Origin: an uncultured bacterium
GTDB taxonomy: Bacteria > Desulfobacterota > Desulfobaccia > Desulfobaccales > 0-14-0-80-60-11
NCBI GenBank assembly: GCA_937943575.1
Contig: CALEAV010000052.1
Coordinates: forward strand, 1 to 58,392
Length of the DNA stretch: 58,392 nucleotides
Reading direction: 5' to 3'
The notes under the pieces were generated by a model. That model was not told where the DNA came from. It saw only the letters and a program-made list of their open reading frames with translations, and did not search any database. Each line of letters begins with the position of its first letter. Positions within the stretch are counted from its first letter, which is position 1. Of this stretch, positions 43,434 to 58,392 are shown piece by piece. Made by a program: the position numbers and the translations under genes.

Positions 43434-43457
43434 TTTTGCCCGCCTGCCTGTATGGGG
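43434..43457 (-). terminator. Rho-independent terminator of the EF-G paralogue
   Basis: A perfect 10-bp stem GCAGGCGGGC / GCCCGCCTGC with a four-base loop; on the minus strand it is followed by TATTTTAATT. It lies 63 bases after the EF-G stop. Confidence 0.82.
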
Positions 43458-43459
43458 TC

Positions 43460-43513
43460 GGGGGAGGGGTTCGGGGGAGGGGGCAGGGGCCGTCGATCCC
43501 TGGCCCCCTCCCC
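43460..43513. repeat. G/C-tract palindromic repeat (copy 3)
   Basis: GGGGGAGGGG runs followed by GGGGGCAGGGGCCGTCGAT and the complementary arm ATCCCTGGCCCCCTCCCC. Close in sequence to the right part of copy 1. Confidence 0.65.
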
Positions 43514-45872: not shown

Positions 45873-45949
45873 CGGGACGTGGCGCAGCCTGGAAGCGCAC
45901 CTGAATGGGGTTCAGGGGGTCGGAGGTTCAAATCCTCTCGTCCCGACCA
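45873..45949 (+). tRNA. tRNA-Pro (anticodon GGG)
   Basis: 77 bases: acceptor CGGGACG/CGTCCCG, D arm GCGCAGCCTGGAAGCGC, anticodon stem CCTGA/TCAGG enclosing loop ATGGGGT (anticodon GGG), T arm GGAGGTTCAAATCCTC, discriminator A and encoded CCA. Confidence 0.96.
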
Positions 45950-45970
45950 GGAGCTGACGTGATTCCCAGG

Positions 45971-46001
45971 GGCTGACAGACGAAAAGCTGTCAGCCTTTT
46001 T
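45971..46001 (+). terminator. Rho-independent terminator of tRNA-Pro
   Basis: GGCTGACAG (45971-45979) / CTGTCAGCC (45988-45996) with loop ACGAAAAG, followed by five T. Confidence 0.93.
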
Positions 46002-46218
46002 GTTTTGCACGGCAATTTCTCACCTTCACGTGACCTGAGGCCATGGAGAAGGGCGCACAGGCTCCCTGGGGGCCGGGTGCCTGGCGTGCAGGATCGCTGG
46101 GTGTCTATGGCTCCTCCTGCATGAAAAGAGGCACCTTCATATATAATGGGGGGAGGCGACAACCGAATCGGTTCAGTGAAGTGGGAATTGAGAAGGACAC
46201 TGCAAAACAGGTCCCCGT

Positions 46219-48090
46219 ATGGCCAGGATGCGCCCGGAAAGGATCGACGGCCTGGACCGGGTCACCCCGGGGGAGCTGAAGGTTTTCCACTTCCTCCGGG
46301 AAGCGGCGCGGCCGCACCGGGATTTTGTGTGCTGGTACAGGCCCCTTCTGGGCGGCCCCGGGGTGGAGCCGGATTTTGTTCTCTTCGGCCAGCATCTCGG
46401 GCTTTTGGTGCTGGAAGTGAAGAACTGGATCCTCCCCCAGATCGTCGCCGCCGACCAGCACCAATTTGTCCTCCGGGTCAAGGACCGGGAGGAAAGGAAG
46501 ATCAACCCGGACCGGCAGGCCAAAAATTATGTGGACGCCTTGTTGGAAGCCCTCAAGGCGGTTCCGGCCTTCGTGGACCAGCCGCCGCCCCATTGCGGTC
46601 AGCTCAAGATACCGGTGGGGCGGATGGTGGTCTTTCCTTACATTTCCCAGGCAGATTACCTGCAATATGGTTTCAACCGGATCCTTCCCCTGGAACGGGT
46701 GCTTCTGCAGGAGGACCTTGACCCGGCGGGGGAGGTGATGGGGGACCCCTCGGGGCAGGCCTTCCGGGCGCGTCTGGCCCGGGCTTTTCCCTTTCCCTTT
46801 GCCGGCCTCACTCCCAAAGAGCTGGCCAAGCTGGAGGCCCTGCTCTGGCCGGAGGTCAGGCTGGACTTGCCCCTCCGCCAGGGAGCGGACAAAGCCCGCT
46901 TTCAGGCCGAGGTGCGGGCCCTGGACGACCTGCAGGCCCGGGTGGCCCGGCAGTTGGGCTCCGGCCACCGGCTCCTCAAAGGCCCGCCGGGCAGCGGCAA
47001 GACCCTGGTCCTCATTCACCGCTGCTATGTGCTCCGCAAATACCAGCCCCAGCCGCCCCGGATCCTGCTGGTGTGCTACATTATCGCCCTGGCCAGTTAC
47101 CTTAAGAGGCTTTTGCAGGAAAAAGGCCTGGGGATCGGCGAAGGCGGCGTGCACGTCCACCACTTCTATGAGCTCTGCTCCTTCATTTTGCAGAACTCCC
47201 TGGGGGAGCCGGTACAATTCAATGTCCCGGATTCCAGTTATTATGAGACCATCATCACCTACACCCTGGAATCGGTCCAGCAGGGGCTTCACCGGCTGGG
47301 GCAATTCGATGTGATCCTGGTGGACGAGGGCCAGGACTTCAGCAACGAGATGCTGAAAATTCTTTTGGGATTGCTGCACCCCGGCGGAGATCTGGTCATC
47401 GCCCTGGATGCCTACCAGGACCTCTATCGCCGCCAGACCTCCTGGCGCGCCCTGGGCATCCAGGCTCAGGGACGCAGCCTCTATCTCGGCCGGGTCTACC
47501 GGCACACCGCCGAAATCTTTGCCTTCACTCAGTGTTTCCTGGGGATGGCCCGCCCTCAGGAGCCGACTCTGCCCCTGTTTCCGGAGGAGGAGCTTGAGCA
47601 TGGCGAGCCGCCGCAGGTGCGCCGCTTCCCTGATATGGAGAAGCTGGAGGCCTTCCTGGTGACGGATATCCGCCGGCACCTGGACGCCGGGGCCTTTACC
47701 CGCGCGGAGATCGCCATCCTCTATGATGACAAGGTGTATGGGCCGGAGGGCTTTCATTACGGCGGCCGGGAGCTGCCCCGCCGCCTCAAGCAGCGGCTTC
47801 AGGCCGCCGGCATCCCGGTCAAATGGGTCTCCGAGGACCTCCGGGCCAAGGAACTCTTTGACATCACCACCGACCGGGTGTCTCTGGTGAGCATCCACAG
47901 CGCCAAGGGGCTGGATTTTGACCTGGTGTACGTGGTGGGCGCCGATCGCATCCGGGCCACGGACGAAACGCGTCCCTACCTCACCCGGCTCCTGTATGTG
48001 GCTCTCACCCGGGCCAAATACCGGCTGGTTATCCCCTATGTGGAAGAAAATGAGTTCATCCGGAAGATGGCACGGTGTCTGGAAGTGTAA
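46219..48090 (+). CDS. NERD-nuclease domain / superfamily 1 DNA helicase
   Basis: A 623-residue protein. The N-terminal NERD domain (about residues 15-150) has a PD-(D/E)xK-type core with PDFVLFG then LLVLEVKNW, so catalytic Asp, Glu and Lys are present. The UvrD/Rep-like helicase (about 235-620) has Walker [11 protein letters not shown] (about residue 253), Walker [21 protein letters not shown], motif [12 protein letters not shown] and motif [15 protein letters not shown]. The ATG at 46219 has no good ribosome binding site. A lone TATAAT occurs at 46142-46147 without a good -35. Downstream on the same strand lie SbcD-like and SbcC-like genes. DNA cleavage coupled to unwinding, in repair or defence, is inferred. 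Confidence 0.88.
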
Positions 48091-48092
48091 CC

Positions 48093-48174
48093 GTCGGGGG
48101 TGGCCAGGGCGGCACGCCCTTTTCAGCCGAGGCACTCTCGCCTCGGTCCCATGATGATGGGCCACCCCCCGGAC
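48093..48174. ncRNA. Folded intergenic element with a closing stem and internal hairpins
   Basis: Outer arms GTC plus GGGGGTGGCC (48093-48105) pair with GGCCACCCCC plus GAC (48160-48174, two-base bulge). Inside lie AGGGCG/CGCCCT (48106-48120), CCGAGGC/GCCTCGG (48127-48146) and CCCAT/ATGGG (48148-48161, partly competing with the outer stem). It could be a structured RNA, a REP/MITE-like repeat or a site used by the flanking genes. Function unknown. Confidence 0.45.
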
Positions 48175-48212
48175 CATTGTTTTCACCCCAGGATTGAAGG
48201 AGAATCCTCGCC

Positions 48213-49337
48213 ATGCCCCTGCGCCTGCTGCACACCGCCGATCTCCATCTGGGAATGAAGTTCACCGGCAGGTATCCCCCTCAGGTGCAAGAGCGCCTGA
48301 TCAGAGCCCGCCTGGAAACCCTGCACAACCTGGTGGAGGCCGCCAATGCGGCCGAGGCTGCGGTCTTGGTCATTGCCGGCGACCTCTTCCATGACCACCA
48401 CCTGCCGCGGCGGGACATCCGGGCCGCGGCCGAGGCTCTGGGGGACTTTGCCGGCCGGGTGGTGCTCATCCTGCCCGGGAACCACGATTTCCTCCAGGAA
48501 GGGGAATGCCCCCTCTGGGACCGCTTCCTGGAGGCCGCCGATGACCAGGTCCTGCTTCTGAAGGAGGCAAGGCCGTATTCCCTCTTGCAGTGGGACCTCC
48601 CTCTGATGATCTATCCCGGCCCCTGCACTGCCAAGCACTCCCCCACCAATGCCATCGGCTGGATTGAGCCGGGCCCCCGGGATCCGGACTTCTGGCATAT
48701 CGGGGTGGCCCACGGCAGCCTGGAGGGGGTGTCCCCGGATTTTGAGGGCCAATATTACCCCATGACCTGGGCGGAGCTCACCTTGGCCCATCTCGACCTG
48801 TGGCTGCTGGGACACACCCATGTGCGGCTGCCGGAGGGGGATCAGGGGCGGGAGGGCAGGGTATTCGTGGCCGGCACCCCGGAGCCCGACGGCTTCGACT
48901 GCCGCCATCCCGGGAACGCCTGGCTCATCGAGCTTAACGCGGACCGCTCCCTCTCATATCGCGGCCTGGTGACCGGCCGGCACCGCTTTGCGGTTCACGA
49001 AGTCGAGCTTTCCACCGAGGACGACCTGGAGGCTTTCCGGGCCCGTTTCCGCCAATTCGATCCCGAACGGGATCTCATCAGGCTCATCCTCCGGGGCCGT
49101 CTTCCGGGGGAGCTGTTTGCCCAGCGGGGCCAGTGGCTGGAGGAGCTGCAGCAGCAGGTCCTCTATCTGGAAGCCGACTTAAGCCGCCTGTTCCGGCGGA
49201 TCACTGCCGAGGACGTCAACCGGGAGTTCACGGCCGGGTCATTCCCCCACCAGCTTTTGACCCGGTTGGTGCAGGCCGGCGGGGATCCCCGGGTGCTGCA
49301 GCTGGCCTATGATCTCATCCAGGAGGTGAGGTCATGA
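48213..49337 (+). CDS. SbcD/YhaO-like metallophosphoesterase nuclease
   Basis: A 374-residue DNA exonuclease-type metallophosphoesterase. All metal-binding motifs are intact: TADLHLG (about residues 8-14), AGDLFHD, LPGNHDF, VAHGS and GHTHV. The C-terminal part (about 270-374) is helical and would contact the SbcC-like ATPase encoded next. The layout resembles Bacillus YhaO, the partner of YhaN. A GAAGGAGAA site precedes the ATG. Its stop overlaps the next start (ATGA), so the two subunits are coupled. It follows the NERD-helicase gene after 122 bases that hold a folded element. Confidence 0.9.
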   Translation: MPLRLLHTADLHLGMKFTGRYPPQVQERLIRARLETLHNLVEAANAAEAAVLVIAGDLFHDHHLPRRDIRAAAEALGDFAGRVVLILPGNHDFLQEGECPLWDRFLEAADDQVLLLKEARPYSLLQWDLPLMIYPGPCTAKHSPTNAIGWIEPGPRDPDFWHIGVAHGSLEGVSPDFEGQYYPMTWAELTLAHLDLWLLGHTHVRLPEGDQGREGRVFVAGTPEPDGFDCRHPGNAWLIELNADRSLSYRGLVTGRHRFAVHEVELSTEDDLEAFRARFRQFDPERDLIRLILRGRLPGELFAQRGQWLEELQQQVLYLEADLSRLFRRITAEDVNREFTAGSFPHQLLTRLVQAGGDPRVLQLAYDLIQEVRS

Positions 49338-51766
49338 TTCTCCGGGAGCTGAAACTCTGCCCCTTTGCGGGCCTGAGCTGCCAGGAGCTCACCTTTGCCC
49401 CGGGCCTGAACGTCATCCTGGGTCCCAATGAAGCGGGCAAAAGCACCATCGTCAATGCCCTGAAGCTGGCGCTGTTCATGCCCACCCGATATTACAAAAC
49501 CACCTTTGACAAGGAAATCCGCCGTTATCTGCCCCTGAGCGGCGGCGACACCATTCGGGTGGAGCTGCATTTCGTCTGTGAGCCCGCCGACACCCTCTAC
49601 CGTTTATCCAAGTCCTGGGGGGCGCGGGCCGAAAGCCGCCTGATTCTGGCGGACGGTGCTCTTTTGGCGGACCCGCAGGCGGTCCAGGAGAAGATGCGGG
49701 AACTCCTGGTGCTTACCGAAGGCACCTACCACAATGTGCTCTTTGCCTACCAATCCCGCCTGGGCACGACGCTGGAGGCCCTCCGGGAGGAACCGGAGGC
49801 GCGGCACCGGCTGGCGGACCTGCTGCGCCGCAGCATCTATGAGACGGACGGCGTCCCCGTGGACCTTCTCGAACAGCGCCTCAATGAGCGCCTGGATCAG
49901 TACTTCTCCCACTGGGACAGGGATCTGGCCAGACCGGAAGGGGATCGAGGTATTGACAATCCCTGGAAGAAGAAAGTGGGGAAAATCCTGCAAGCCTATT
50001 ACGAGCGGGAGCAATGGCGCCGGAAATTGAGAGAAGCCCAGGACTACGAAAGGGAGTTGGATGCCTTCAATGAGCGTCTCCGCCGCATGGGGGCCGAAGT
50101 GGAGAGCCTCAAGAAATACGTCGACACCCATCAGAAACTGGTGGCCGATGCGCGCCAGCGCCAGCTCCTGACGGCTCAGCTGGAGGCCCATCGCAAAGAT
50201 GAAAAGGAGTTGAAGGAAATCTGTCAGAAATGGCCGGTCCTGGAGAAAGAAATCGAGAACGGCACAACCTTATTGGCACAACGCCAAAAAGAGCAGCAAA
50301 GCCTGGATAAGGAGCTGGAGGAGGCCAAAAAATATGAGGCCTTAAAAGAGGCCCGGGACCGTTTCCAACGGGCGGAGAAGAAGCATCAGGCTGTGAAAGA
50401 GGCCAAGGCCGCTTTGGCGGACCTCAAAGAGGTCACCGCCACGGACCTTACCACCCTGCAGAACCTGAACCTGCGGTTGACCGACTGCCGGGCCCGCCTG
50501 GCTGCAGGGAGACTCCAGCTGCATTTTACTCCCCGGGTGGCCTTGACCCTGGAGGCAGCCAGGGACCTGGAAGAAGCCGCCCCCTACCCCCTCGCGGCCG
50601 GCCAGACCCTGGAGCTGGAGGCCGGCGGCCGGCTCTCTCTGGCCCATCCGGACTGGCAACTGACGGTGCGCTCCGGGGAGGTGGACTTTGAGGAGGTGGC
50701 GCGGGACTATACCCGGGTCCACAAGGAGATGCAGGACCTTCTGAAGCGTCTCCAGGTGAAGAGTCTTGAGGAGGCGCACCAGGCTTACGAAACTTATCGG
50801 GAGCAGCTCAATGTCATCAAGGCCCTGGAAGCCGATCTGGCAGAGATTCTGGGCGACACGTCCTACGAAGAGCTTAGGGCGACCCTCCAGGGGGCTGAGC
50901 CCACTGCCCCGCCCCGTCCCAGCAACGAGGTGGCCCTGCGCCTGGGGGAGGTAAGGACGGCCATCAGCCAGCAGGAGAAGGACCTGACAGAAAAGCGCGA
51001 GCAGCTGAGCAAGTGGCAGGAGGCCCACCACTCCCTGGACCGCTTGCTGGACCGGCAAGTGGACGTCCGCGCCGGGATCAGACGGCTGGAAGGGGAACTC
51101 CAGGCTCTCACCCCCCTGCCTCCCGACATTACAGATGTGGAAGCCTTCATCGCCGGGTTTGAGGAGCAGGAGAGGCAGCTCAAGCTCAAAGAGAGGGAAT
51201 TCCAGGAGCTGCTGCTGCAAAGGGCGGAGTTCCAAACCCAGGCTCCGGGCGAAACCGTTGAGGAGATCCTCCCGCAACTGCAGGAGGCGGAGCGCCTGTT
51301 TGCGGAGGCCCGGCAGGAAGGCGAAGCCCTCCTGGCCATCCGGCAGGCCTTTGACGAGGTCAAGGGGCAGATGGATGGGCAGACCCTGACCCCCTGGCTG
51401 GAGGACCTGCAAAACCTCCTGGGAACCCTCACCGGCGGGCGCTATGTCACCGTGGAATTTCCTGACCAGGGGGAGGAAAGGGCGGTGCGGCAAGATGGCC
51501 TGAAGGTGCCGGCCCTGCTTCTCTCCGGGGGCGCCAAGGTCAGCTTCGGCCTGGCAGTGCGGCTGTCCATGGCAGCCCATTTCCTTCATGGGCTCCAGGG
51601 GTTCCTGGTTCTGGACGATCCCCTGGTGGACCTGGACGATGCCGGCCGACAGCAGGCGGCGGTGCAGGTCCTCCGGGAGTTTGCCCACCAAAAACAGGTC
51701 ATTGTGCTCACCTGCAAACGGAGCCATGCCGACCTGCTGGGCGGACATCGCATTGACCTGGCGTGA
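49334..51766 (+). CDS. SbcC/YhaN-like SMC-type ATPase without zinc hook
   Basis: An 810-residue Rad50/SbcC-type ATPase. Walker A is GPNEAGKSTI (about residues 31-40), a Q-loop-like segment lies near AYQSRLG, the ABC signature is LLSGGAKVSFGLAVR, and Walker B/D-loop is LVLDDPLVDLDDAGRQ. Two long coiled-coil stretches flank a compact beta-rich segment (about residues 395-452, ALTLEAARDL... TLELEAGGRLSLAHPDW). That segment occupies the place where SbcC and Rad50 have a CxxC zinc hook; no CxxC exists. It is coupled to the nuclease gene by ATGA. The pair would process DNA ends or hairpins. A 405-base gap follows with no gene. Confidence 0.9.
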   Translation: MILRELKLCPFAGLSCQELTFAPGLNVILGPNEAGKSTIVNALKLALFMPTRYYKTTFDKEIRRYLPLSGGDTIRVELHFVCEPADTLYRLSKSWGARAESRLILADGALLADPQAVQEKMRELLVLTEGTYHNVLFAYQSRLGTTLEALREEPEARHRLADLLRRSIYETDGVPVDLLEQRLNERLDQYFSHWDRDLARPEGDRGIDNPWKKKVGKILQAYYEREQWRRKLREAQDYERELDAFNERLRRMGAEVESLKKYVDTHQKLVADARQRQLLTAQLEAHRKDEKELKEICQKWPVLEKEIENGTTLLAQRQKEQQSLDKELEEAKKYEALKEARDRFQRAEKKHQAVKEAKAALADLKEVTATDLTTLQNLNLRLTDCRARLAAGRLQLHFTPRVALTLEAARDLEEAAPYPLAAGQTLELEAGGRLSLAHPDWQLTVRSGEVDFEEVARDYTRVHKEMQDLLKRLQVKSLEEAHQAYETYREQLNVIKALEADLAEILGDTSYEELRATLQGAEPTAPPRPSNEVALRLGEVRTAISQQEKDLTEKREQLSKWQEAHHSLDRLLDRQVDVRAGIRRLEGELQALTPLPPDITDVEAFIAGFEEQERQLKLKEREFQELLLQRAEFQTQAPGETVEEILPQLQEAERLFAEARQEGEALLAIRQAFDEVKGQMDGQTLTPWLEDLQNLLGTLTGGRYVTVEFPDQGEERAVRQDGLKVPALLLSGGAKVSFGLAVRLSMAAHFLHGLQGFLVLDDPLVDLDDAGRQQAAVQVLREFAHQKQVIVLTCKRSHADLLGGHRIDLA

Positions 51767-52177
51767 GAGCAAGAAAATCACGGGAGTAGGTCTGCTTAAG
51801 CAAGAAAGGTCGGGGGATACCCCGCAAAGACGAGACAGCTCCGGTGGGATCCTGCCCCTGTTGCCTCAAAACCTCCAAACCTAAGACCGCCCTGCCTGGT
51901 TGGCGGGGCGGTGTGCCTGGCAAAGAGAACCCGATACTTTTTCCTTCAATTGGCTTATAGTTAAATTGTCTGGAATTTTAAGAGGGGGCAGGGGGCATGG
52001 CCTTCTGGCCCTGTATCCGGCTTTCTTCCTCAACCCGTTCACCGGTGGCCGGGGAATTGCGAGGCGGGTCGCAGCCTCTCACTTCCCGGCCTTCCATCCG
52101 AGGGCAGGTGCCTGGCGCCTCATGGGCGCGGGGCCTTTCCGCCGTTTCATGCCGGGGTTCATCCCCAGGAGGTGATC

Positions 52178-54928
52178 ATGGGAAGCTTGCAGGGGTTGGG
52201 GCTGGAGTTTCAGGAGACCATGTCTGGCTGGCTGGGCGTGGGCCAGGAGGATTTTCTGGCGGGCCGCATCACCGGGGAACGGGAGCACACCCCCTTACAG
52301 TTTGAGGCCCGCATCATCATTGACGACCTGGAGAAATTCATCCATCTGGCGGAGCACGAAGCCCGCCTGACCGGCACCGTGACCTTCGGTCCCCTGGGGG
52401 GCACCTTTCCCATGGAGGACGGGGTCTTCACCCTGTTTTCCGTGAGCCCCGCAGGCATCCGGCGCATGACCTACTCCTTCCGCTTCACCGCCGCCGACGG
52501 CCGCCCCTATTTTCTCTTCGGGCACAAGAACCTCAAGGATGACCCCGGCTTCGACCTGGTGGAGGATATGACCACCCTCTTTACCCGGCTTTATGCCGGG
52601 CCGGATGAAGGTGCCCCCCTCTATGGCGCCGGACAGCTCTTTTTTGACCTTAGGGAGGCGCCGGCCCTGATGGCCTCCTTGAAGGTTACCGGCGCCGGGT
52701 GGTGGGAATTGCACCGGAAGATCCAGGCCCGGTCGGCCTTCCTCGACTTCGTCTGGGGGAAGCTCCGCCAGGAGTATCTCCGGGATCTCAATCCCTTATA
52801 CGATACGGAATATGAAAACCTGGCGCTGGCCGGGAAGGTGGACCTCCAAGGGGAGCCCCGGGATTTCTTCCTGGTCTCCGGCATCCACGACCGGGACTTC
52901 CCTTGGGGGGACGGGGAGATCTTCTGGGATGTGCTTCTGGTTTTGGAGGACGGCCGGGGCGGCTGGCGGCGCTTCGCCCTCACCGACCGCGTCCTGCCCG
53001 GCCTGAAACTCAGCGTCCAGGCCGGGACCTTCAGCTATCAGGGGCCACTCTTTGAGCTCACCCGGGGCTATGCCGTCTTTCGGGCGGAGATGCAGCGAGG
53101 AGACCCCGGACTGGCGGCCTGGCAGGCCGATCTTCAGCTCACCTTCACCGCCACCCCCTATGCCGTCACCCCGATTCCCTTCGCCATCGCCCACGAGGTG
53201 GTGGCCCAGATGGCCTCCAGCCTCAGGTGGCTGCTGCGGAGCATCCTGCCGGGGGAGTCATTGTTGGGGGTTTATATCACCCCCCACACAGTGGCGGTGC
53301 GTGAGGGCCGGCTGGCCCTGAGGCGATCGGGCGAGGAGCTCATGGCCGGAATCCTCCCCGAGACCGCCTTCGGGGAGGCGGAGCGCACCAGCTTCCGCAA
53401 CCTCAAGGAGCCCCCCCTGCTGTACGGCTATATCTGTGCGGTGCGCCCCCAGGCCCGGGCCGCCCGGGTGCAGATCCACGCCAATTCGCTGCGGACCGGG
53501 CGCCACCGCCTCACCAGGGACCAGTTCGACGCCTTCCTGGGCGCAGTGTTGGACCGGGTGGCTTCCCGGGAGTTCCTCCTGGAGGGGGGCGCCCTGAAGG
53601 TGACCCCGCTGGGGCCCTGGGAGGAGGGGGAGACCCGCGGGCGCCTTTTCCGCAAACTGGGGGAGCCGCTGTTGGAGGTGAACAACGACCACTTCCCCAC
53701 CGCGGTCTTCCAGCGGCGCATCATCCGGGTGGCGGACCCGGCAGGGCAAATCTGCCTGGCCCTGGAGGAGGACATGAACCTGATGCGCCTGCAGGCGGAA
53801 AACTGCCGCCGCCAGGTGAGCGTGGCCGCCATCCGGGACCCGGACCAGTTCAGGGCCCTGGACACGGCGCTCACGGCCGGCCGCTTCTGGGAGACGCTGG
53901 AGGCGGCCTGGCAGGGCTCCGGCAGGGGGAGGGCGGAGTTCGCCATCGTCATCAAGCCCAATTTCATGTTCGCCTACAACCGAAACGACAGAAGCACCTA
54001 TACCGACCCGGAGCTGGTGCACCACCTGGTGCGGCGGCTCCGGGAGCGGGGCTACCCCCACCTCACCGTGGCCGAAGCCCAGAGCACCTACGGCGAGTAT
54101 TTCGACAAGCGGAGCGTCCGGGAGGTGGCGGAGTATCTGGGCTACGTGGCGGACGGCAGCGAGGGGTACCGGCTGGTGGACCTCACCCTGGATGAGTGGG
54201 AGGAGCGTTACCTGGGTCTGCACCTGGGCCGTCATCCGGTGCCCCTGACCTGGCGGGACGCCGACTTCCGGATCTCCTTCGCCAAGAACAAGACCCACGC
54301 CTACGCCTACTACTCCCTCACCCTGAAAAACATCTACGGCGCCCTGCCGCTGGCCGACAAGTTCTCCGCCTACCACACCGGCCGGGACATCTACCACCCC
54401 ACCATGGAGTATCTCCAGGCCTTTCCGGTGCACTTCGGCATCATTGACGCCCACCTCAGCGCCGACGGTCCCTTCGGGGTCTTTGCCGACCCGGAGCCCA
54501 ACCGCACCGAAACCATCATCGCCGGGGCGGACCTGGTGGCGGTGGACTGGGTGGGGGCCGGCAAGATGGGGCTGAACCCCAAGATCAGCCAATACATGGA
54601 GCTGGCGGTGAAGACCTTCGGCAAGCCGGAGATTCACCTGGTCGGCGATGCCAGCTTATATCGGCCCTGGCTCAATGTGCCGGCGGTGATGACCATCCTC
54701 ACCCACTTCGGGCTGGACGCCAACGACTACTTCGGCAATCTCCTCTACATGGCCGGGGCCTACATGGACGAGAGCCATTTCACCCATAAATCCAAATCCG
54801 TCTACATGCAGGCGGCCAGGCGGGCCCTTAGGCCTTTGCAGCAGGCCCTCTTTCTTCAGGCCGGGGGCGAGCGCACCTTGGCCAACCGGCTCCTGGCCCG
54901 GTTTTTCACCTGGCTGGGGAGCCGGTAA
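52178..54928 (+). CDS. DUF362-domain protein with a large N-terminal beta-rich extension
   Basis: A 916-residue protein. The C-terminal part (about residues 500-880) is a DUF362 domain: IVIKPNFMFAYN, VAEAQSTYGEYF, ISFAKNKTHAYAYYSLTLKNIYG and GADLVAVDWVGAGKMG. The N-terminal part (about 1-330) is beta-rich with LTGTVTFGPLGGTFPMEDGVFTLF and RPYFLFGHKNLKDDPGFDLVEDMTTLF. From memory this resembles a domain found in some mycobacterial GMC/cholesterol-oxidase-like proteins (low confidence). AGGAGG lies five bases before the ATG at 52178. No ferredoxin-type CxxC cluster is visible, unlike many DUF362 proteins. No signal peptide is seen. Function unknown. Confidence 0.78.
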   Translation: MGSLQGLGLEFQETMSGWLGVGQEDFLAGRITGEREHTPLQFEARIIIDDLEKFIHLAEHEARLTGTVTFGPLGGTFPMEDGVFTLFSVSPAGIRRMTYSFRFTAADGRPYFLFGHKNLKDDPGFDLVEDMTTLFTRLYAGPDEGAPLYGAGQLFFDLREAPALMASLKVTGAGWWELHRKIQARSAFLDFVWGKLRQEYLRDLNPLYDTEYENLALAGKVDLQGEPRDFFLVSGIHDRDFPWGDGEIFWDVLLVLEDGRGGWRRFALTDRVLPGLKLSVQAGTFSYQGPLFELTRGYAVFRAEMQRGDPGLAAWQADLQLTFTATPYAVTPIPFAIAHEVVAQMASSLRWLLRSILPGESLLGVYITPHTVAVREGRLALRRSGEELMAGILPETAFGEAERTSFRNLKEPPLLYGYICAVRPQARAARVQIHANSLRTGRHRLTRDQFDAFLGAVLDRVASREFLLEGGALKVTPLGPWEEGETRGRLFRKLGEPLLEVNNDHFPTAVFQRRIIRVADPAGQICLALEEDMNLMRLQAENCRRQVSVAAIRDPDQFRALDTALTAGRFWETLEAAWQGSGRGRAEFAIVIKPNFMFAYNRNDRSTYTDPELVHHLVRRLRERGYPHLTVAEAQSTYGEYFDKRSVREVAEYLGYVADGSEGYRLVDLTLDEWEERYLGLHLGRHPVPLTWRDADFRISFAKNKTHAYAYYSLTLKNIYGALPLADKFSAYHTGRDIYHPTMEYLQAFPVHFGIIDAHLSADGPFGVFADPEPNRTETIIAGADLVAVDWVGAGKMGLNPKISQYMELAVKTFGKPEIHLVGDASLYRPWLNVPAVMTILTHFGLDANDYFGNLLYMAGAYMDESHFTHKSKSVYMQAARRALRPLQQALFLQAGGERTLANRLLARFFTWLGSR

Positions 54929-57692: not shown

Positions 57693-57844
57693 CATGCACG
57701 CTGGATCGCAATCCCCTCTCATCGGGTCAAGGATTCCTACCTTCTAAGGATCAGGAGGGGATTATGCTGTGCATTCTGGTCGCAATCCCCTCTCATCGGG
57801 TCAAGGATTCCTACCCGTAGATGCTTAAGGCCATGTCTCAAGCC

Positions 57845-57928
57845 TCACGCCATGCGTTCCAAGGCCTCACGATAACACTCTCGACAGCCTTCTACCAGCG
57901 ACGGGGGTGGACAGTGTTTGTCAGTCAT
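57845..57928 (-). CDS. Tiny Cys-containing ORF (27 residues) inside the CRISPR interruption
   Basis: An ATG directly follows the stop of the ORF at 57929 (TAA-ATG), giving a 27-residue peptide starting MTDKHCPPPSLVEG and ending in REALERMA, with three Cys (HC, GC, EC). Translation would depend on coupling to the upstream tiny ORF. It could be a real small protein or chance; no homologue is recalled. Confidence 0.35.
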   Translation of the reverse strand: MTDKHCPPPSLVEGCRECYREALERMA

Positions 57929-58006
57929 TTAAAGATACCCCTGTTTTTTGAGTTCCTTGTAGCCAACATACAAGAAGAGACCAATCAAAACCAACCAGAA
58001 AAACAT
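57929..58006 (-). CDS. Tiny membrane-protein ORF (25 residues) inside the CRISPR interruption
   Basis: Starts at an ATG (58006) with AGGAGGTG ten bases upstream, among the best ribosome binding sites in the window. The 25-residue product begins MFFWLVLIGLFLYVGYKEL and ends in Lys-Lys-Gln-Gly-Tyr-Leu: one membrane helix with a basic tail, like small subunits of membrane complexes. It lies in the same direction as the presumed CRISPR transcript. Family not recognised. Confidence 0.55.
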   Translation of the reverse strand: MFFWLVLIGLFLYVGYKELKKQGYL

Positions 58007-58392
58007 GTTCGTTTCACCTCCTGATGATGGTGTCTCACACTGCAGGTTGCGCCGCTCTGCGGCGGGTTAGACGTTGTAATCGGGTCAATGATTCCTACCC
58101 ACCCATAATAGGCCAATTATACATCCTTATCCCTATGTCGCAATCCCCTCTCATCGGGTCAAGGATTCCTACGAGGAGCTGTAGAGACCAGGGGAGGGGG
58201 AGCACCCCCAGTCGCAATGCCCTCTAATCGGGTCAAGGATTCCTACCCGGGACCTGGCCAACAAGGAATCCCGGGAGGGTAGTAAGTCGCAATCCCCTCT
58301 AATCGGGTCAAGGATTCCTACAGGGAGGGGGTCACCCTGCCGGCCGGCGCCGTATATCCGTCGCAATCCCCTCTAATCGGGTCAAGGATTCC

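Follow-up and report, generated by a model that had tools for sequence, protein, structure and literature searches.

A nuclease-helicase gene and a hookless Mre11-Rad50-like pair as probably separable modules sharing a variable, CRISPR-bearing slot

INTRODUCTION

Do neighboring genes for a nuclease-helicase, an SbcD-like phosphoesterase and an SbcC-like ATPase form one defense cassette, or are they separable parts that share a locus? The question is raised by a contig (C52) from the 2.58-Mb genome of an uncultured Desulfobacterota bacterium (G000), which we analyzed whole as a window of 58,392 nucleotides (nt). A preliminary description of the window had proposed a DNA-defense or repair cassette composed of a NERD-helicase and a coupled nuclease-ATPase pair. 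We found all three open reading frames (ORFs) intact on one strand, with coordinates that match that description exactly, encoding proteins of 623, 374 and 810 amino acids (aa). We consider it probable that they represent two separable DNA-end-processing modules, the helicase and the pair, that share a variable, CRISPR-bearing slot without forming a fixed three-gene system. Enzymatic activity, a role in defense and any cooperation are inferred from domains, motifs, distribution, synteny and genomic context.

46219..48090, + strand: ORF1, NERD-UvrD nuclease-helicase, 623 aa (Pfam; PADLOC PDLC01087 C3a187; motifs)
46267..46638, + strand: NERD nuclease domain, residues 17-140, with PD-(D/E)xK residues D52, E66 and K68 (Pfam PF08378; alignment)
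48213..49337, + strand: ORF2, SbcD/Mre11/YhaO-like phosphoesterase, 374 aa (Pfam Metallophos; metal ligands; closest solved chains; clade)
49334..51766, + strand: ORF3, SbcC/Rad50/YhaN-like ABC ATPase of 810 aa that lacks a zinc hook (motifs; AlphaFold2 model; Foldseek)
50513..50671, + strand: compact beta-domain, residues 394-446, at the coiled-coil apex (secondary structure of the model; predicted local distance difference test score [pLDDT] about 74-88)

RESULTS

A conserved cassette should keep its helicase and its pair together. The first distribution sample consisted of 59 relatives of the window genome. We also surveyed 395 genomes of the phylum for helicase and pair, scanned 84,980 species genomes for the SbcD-like protein, and inspected the flanks of the pair at 27 loci from outside the phylum over up to 10 kb, several of these contigs being shorter. 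A widening of the helicase survey by class covered 5 and 23 genomes only. In the phylum, the helicase was present in 14 genomes and the pair in 3 (G000, G002 and G296); 2 of the 395 carried both, which leaves 12 of the 14 helicase genomes without the pair. G002 and a further relative, G011, have the pair without the helicase. Neither a helicase nor a CRISPR array was found within the available flanks of the 27 outside-phylum pair loci, and a remote helicase homolog occurred anywhere in the genome in only 3 of these 27.

Within the window, a spacer of 122 nt parts the two modules, and ORF2 and ORF3 share a 4-nt overlap (ATGA). The 125-nt region 48088-48212 had a minimum free energy of -58 kcal/mol (z = -3.3), which was equaled by 1 of 200 shuffled sequences. 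This region had no Rfam match, a tRNA being the sole Rfam finding, and no copy in any fetched locus. The folded spacer may separate two transcripts.

48096..48172, + strand: strongly structured spacer, a branched stem, that sets the SbcD-like gene apart from the helicase gene (fold vs shuffles)

Since each module also occurs without the other, and a folded spacer lies between them, a conserved cassette is unsupported. The preliminary description had let its proposal hang on helicase and pair being neighbors in relatives, and for the most part they are not.

The helicase module by itself is readily placed. ORF1 contains the NERD domain and the UvrD N- and C-terminal domains, all above the curated Pfam cutoffs. 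The protein retains an intact D52/E66-x-K68 nuclease site as well as intact superfamily 1 (SF1) motifs I, II, V and VI, and an alignment of 16 homologs from many genera and plasmids showed that the nuclease and motor motifs are conserved, which bears out what had been claimed for them. Among defense profiles (PADLOC), PDLC01087 (C3a187, NERD+UvrD) matched with 252 bits (E 2.9e-75) over the full length, aligning residues 13-622 with positions 13-558 of a 559-position profile. The statement that the locus matches no named system thus held for the pair, for which no PADLOC model matched over its full length, but not for the helicase. In a tree, the window helicase belongs to a four-member clade with those of G296, G108 and G060 (support 100/100).

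The neighbors of the helicase agree with the expected defense-island distribution. It adjoins BrxL and PglZ (BREX) in G108, a DndH/HerA-like gene in G048, a PDC-M21B gene in G289 and Mokosh/TmtA-like genes in G302; plasmid-borne relatives lie near viperin or near an N-6 DNA methylase. G048 is the only one of the 59 relatives with a full-length homolog, and no helicase was found in phage records. By its sequence and surroundings, the predicted protein is a catalogued kind of defense-island nuclease-helicase. Possible partners appear at two other loci. A DUF2779/Cas4-like nuclease gene directly succeeds the G296 helicase in tight operon-like order (L164:6575-9955), and in G302 (L168:147-8951) the helicase is similarly arranged with genes for a NOV_C protein and a DpdJ/MkoA-like protein.

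The pair has a different standing. ORF2 encodes a calcineurin-like phosphoesterase (Pfam) whose metal-site motifs (D10, H12, D57, N90-H91-D92, H167, H201 and H203) are invariant across its clade and whose closest solved chains are SbcD/Mre11. ORF3 carries a Walker A motif (GPNEAGKST), an ABC signature and a DD-type Walker B motif, all conserved in relatives. A phosphoesterase gene with all metal ligands thus overlaps a gene for a Rad50-type ATPase, an arrangement expected of the Mre11-Rad50 superfamily (SbcCD, YhaO/YhaN). All NCBIfam cutoffs for SbcD, SbcC and Rad50 were nevertheless missed: the SbcD-like protein scored 43.5 bits against TIGR00619 (cutoff 77.65) and the SbcC-like protein at most 90 bits against Rad50 models (cutoffs of at least 700).

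The ORF3 protein has no CxxC zinc hook. An AlphaFold2 model built from 19 sequences (mean pLDDT 83, predicted template modeling score 0.43) predicts an ABC head, long coiled-coil arms and, at the position of the Rad50 zinc hook, the small beta-domain. Foldseek ranked Rad50 chains best for this model, with SMC-type proteins and Lamassu LmuACB lower; whole-chain template modeling scores were low, which an extended coiled coil would lead one to expect, and the head match is the informative part. In the tree, the window SbcD-like protein falls in a separate 30-row clade (support 100/99), apart from Planococcus proteins and from the YhaO-type protein of the same genome, which belongs to a family-wide YhaO/YhaN-type pair on contig C38 (about 25.9-30.4 kb). 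The earlier assignment to the YhaO/YhaN type needs one correction: in this genome, that type is represented by the C38 genes. The window pair belongs to an uncatalogued, sporadic and hookless clade of the Mre11-Rad50/YhaO-YhaN superfamily, marked by a beta-domain at the tip of the coiled coil.

A second genome, G296, carries both modules. Its helicase (L164:8069-9955) is 52% identical to that of the window, and its pair (L164:12891-16423; 44% and 36% identical) lies on the same strand 3 kb away; two ORFs intervene, one transposase-like and one of 377 aa. The G296 SbcD-like protein groups with sequences from Erginobacter and a Pseudomonadota member, and the window protein with those of G002, G011 and Verrucomicrobia. 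Because the pairs come from different branches, the two co-localizations look like separate assemblies, and judging from these trees the combination was probably assembled twice.

These data bear most directly on the alternative that the genes constitute a true two-module defense system, rare but functional, in which the pair would sense, open or clamp DNA ends and hand them to the NERD-helicase, which would destroy the invader; the system would have been assembled at least 2 times. Co-localization in both G000 and G296 favors this idea, as does the presence of the pair in 2 of the 4 genomes that make up the close helicase clade when it occurs in so few genomes of the phylum. Several points here weigh against the two modules being merely separable. 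With the window genome left out, the helicase is found in 1 of 2 pair genomes (G296), an outcome with a chance probability of about 6-7% (13 of 394 carry the helicase); adjacency within 3 kb lowers that probability further unless clustering in islands accounts for it, exceeds random placement and hints at cooperation; and the G296 pair comes from a different branch, yet its helicase belongs to the same clade as that of the window. However, the window was chosen for having both modules, so that a single independent recurrence counts, and the clustering of defense genes in islands would likewise yield that recurrence. Gene order differs in G296, with the transposase-like ORF between the modules, the folded spacer parts them in the window, and most carriers of either module lack the other. 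We therefore regard a cooperating system, and the division of labor proposed for it, as unlikely, and continue to favor two separable modules.

The distribution of the pair addresses a second alternative, that the set performs ordinary housekeeping DNA repair and lies near a CRISPR array by chance. The SbcD-like protein had 29 relatives of 36-70% identity among the species genomes scanned, G011 and G002 included, below which identity dropped to 34% or less, one short fragment excepted. At the 27 loci outside the phylum, the SbcC-like gene directly follows the SbcD-like gene wherever the contig allows. Neighbors of the pair are conserved and housekeeping-looking within the Akkermansiaceae and within the Syntrophomonadaceae, and these fixed neighbors suggest a repair role for the pair in Verrucomicrobia and Syntrophomonadaceae. 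Such a role would be in keeping with Mre11-Rad50 relatives as repair enzymes.

The surroundings are different in the lineage of the window. Of the 59 relatives, G002 and G011 carry the pair, and G026 has a truncated SbcC-like gene. All three intact pairs of family f1 lie less than 6 kb from a CRISPR array. In G011, the pair is located between an array of the same repeat family as that of the window and the Azaca genes zacA/zacB; in G002, it lies beside a second array with a different repeat; and the SbcC-like remnant of G026 (L036:3024-4151) adjoins type I-C cas3/cas5. The zacA gene and a shortened zacB of G011 (L035:5534-8040) have the SbcC-like gene and a transposase-like gene as neighbors. 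A truncated SbcD-like remnant is present in G027 (L037:270-392) on a contig with a HerA-like gene. The remnants in G026 and G027 suggest past loss in the order.

The pair is sporadic and located in defense islands in the phylum of the window, and it appears fixed in some phyla. The preliminary description had named a universal, housekeeping distribution in the lineage as telling against a defense set, and neither module is universal there: both are sporadic, missing from G001, a congener, and from the greater part of family f1. With CRISPR, Azaca and cas genes as neighbors in this lineage and a separate YhaO/YhaN-type pair already in the genome, a housekeeping repair set seems improbable to us.

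Two other explanations for the distribution of the pair were rejected. Spread by plasmids or phages found no support, as no relative at the thresholds used was present in plasmids or phage records and viral contigs gave only remote YhaO/SbcD-type matches. A CRISPR-dedicated role everywhere does not fit the outside-phylum loci, which are without arrays.

To place the two modules in their genomic setting, we compared the interval that contains them with those of the congeners. As had been described, a tRNA gene lies next to the set (tRNAs were predicted with ARAGORN) and a CRISPR array a few kilobases away, beginning 5.9 kb past ORF3.

45873..45949, + strand: tRNA-Pro (GGG), which bounds the variable slot on the left (ARAGORN; Rfam tRNA)
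45968..46005, + strand: intrinsic terminator of tRNA-Pro, a 12-pair stem then a T-rich tail (terminator scan)
46001..52112, no strand: variable slot, from tRNA-Pro to the DUF362 gene (congener comparison)
57705..58392, + strand: CRISPR array, running off the contig end (array detection)

Between G001 and the window, the side with elongation factor G (EF-G) and tRNA-Pro and the side with the DUF362 gene are 86-91% identical, and blastn of the G001 junction placed the end of homology at the tRNA-Pro terminator. In G001, the slot holds a different 5-kb interval with a gene that has an fn3 domain and weak multiheme-cytochrome matches. In G002, array repeats lie just beyond tRNA-Pro on one contig, and a second contig has repeats together with cmr1 and cas10 immediately beyond the DUF362 gene. 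Because its content differs between the window, G001 and G002, the interval is a variable slot. The CRISPR repeat of the window also flanks type III-A genes in G001 and type III-B genes in G002; the III-A locus (G001, L186:10648-19045), which adjoins this repeat, comprises cas6, cas10 and csm3, a gene for a CARF effector and additional genes.

Integration at the tRNA with duplication of an attachment site was rejected, since the last 16-25 nt of tRNA-Pro are not repeated elsewhere in the compared loci. A foreign base composition was likewise rejected: the G+C content (GC) of helicase and pair, overall and at third codon positions (GC3), falls inside the range of the other window genes.

It is very unlikely, in our view, that the genes are type III CRISPR accessories, for example for DNA clearance after Cas10 targeting or for spacer precursor trimming: the nearby arrays at the window and at every intact f1 pair, the III-B genes in the same slot of G002 and the numbering of C3a187, which we read as placing it among CRISPR accessory models, would fit, but the window has no cas gene near its array, the fetched stretches at 13 other helicase loci and the 27 outside-phylum pair loci have no array, and elsewhere the helicase keeps company with genes of BREX, viperin or restriction.

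Three further features of the window were observed. Downstream of EF-G lies a short, dispersed palindromic repeat (43447-43513) that folds strongly (z -4.0) and has dozens of related copies in the window genome, G001, G002, G003 and G011. A degenerate CRISPR repeat (58063-58107) lies within the array after an irregular 284-nt spacing. The DUF362 gene (52172-54928) encodes a 918-aa protein in which DUF362 is limited to the C-terminal part (residues 592-796) and the N-terminal ~590 residues have no Pfam match; orthologs in both congeners are 86-87% identical.

DISCUSSION

Judged from their sequences and company, both modules are probably defense-related in the window genome. The NERD-UvrD protein would be a self-contained accessory nuclease-helicase. 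It would load at single-stranded DNA ends, free or exposed, move along the DNA by its SF1 motor and cut with its NERD nuclease, thereby degrading invading DNA. The pair would act as a compact, hookless Mre11-Rad50-type complex whose ATP-dependent head engagement may clamp DNA ends or hairpins and gate cutting by the Mre11-like nuclease.

Mre11-Rad50-like ATPases are now recognized as kin of defense systems such as Lamassu. A compact, hookless clade, tipped by a beta-domain, that has fixed neighbors in some phyla and is sporadic and CRISPR- or Azaca-adjacent in others would be a useful case of a repair complex recruited into immunity. The helicase module and the pair usually travel separately. 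If their pairing is functional, it would represent a new two-module end-degrading defense; if it is not, the locus is a warning about inferring defense operons from a single locus.

Among known systems, C3a187 shares its domain order with the window helicase over the full length; a literature search found no functional test of it. Nhi-like proteins are likewise listed with NERD (PMC10952713), and the model for Nhi covers just one motor stretch of the window helicase (27.5 bits). Gabija (GajA/GajB) also places an ATPase/nuclease beside a UvrD-like helicase. However, the GajA model matches only the first ~80 residues of the window ATPase, which has an Mre11-type partner and a coiled coil in place of an OLD-TOPRIM nuclease (no TOPRIM domain was found), and the window helicase carries NERD. 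Lamassu shares a Rad50-like ATPase of modest size, with a partial LmuB match of 73 bits. The window differs in its Mre11-like nuclease and in a Walker B motif with D, where that of LmuB is reported with Q (PMC10586767). No LmuA or LmuC match was found among the four scanned proteins, and the neighboring genes encode the helicase, the Mre11-like protein and the DUF362 protein. SbcCD/Mre11-Rad50 complexes likewise combine a nuclease with a Rad50-type ATPase, whereas the window ATPase has a short coiled coil and an apical beta-domain in place of the CxxC zinc hook. Bacillus-type YhaO/YhaN shares the coupled phosphoesterase and the hookless ABC ATPase with DD-type Walker B, but the window pair stands in its own strongly supported clade, with the YhaO-type protein of the same genome far off in the tree.

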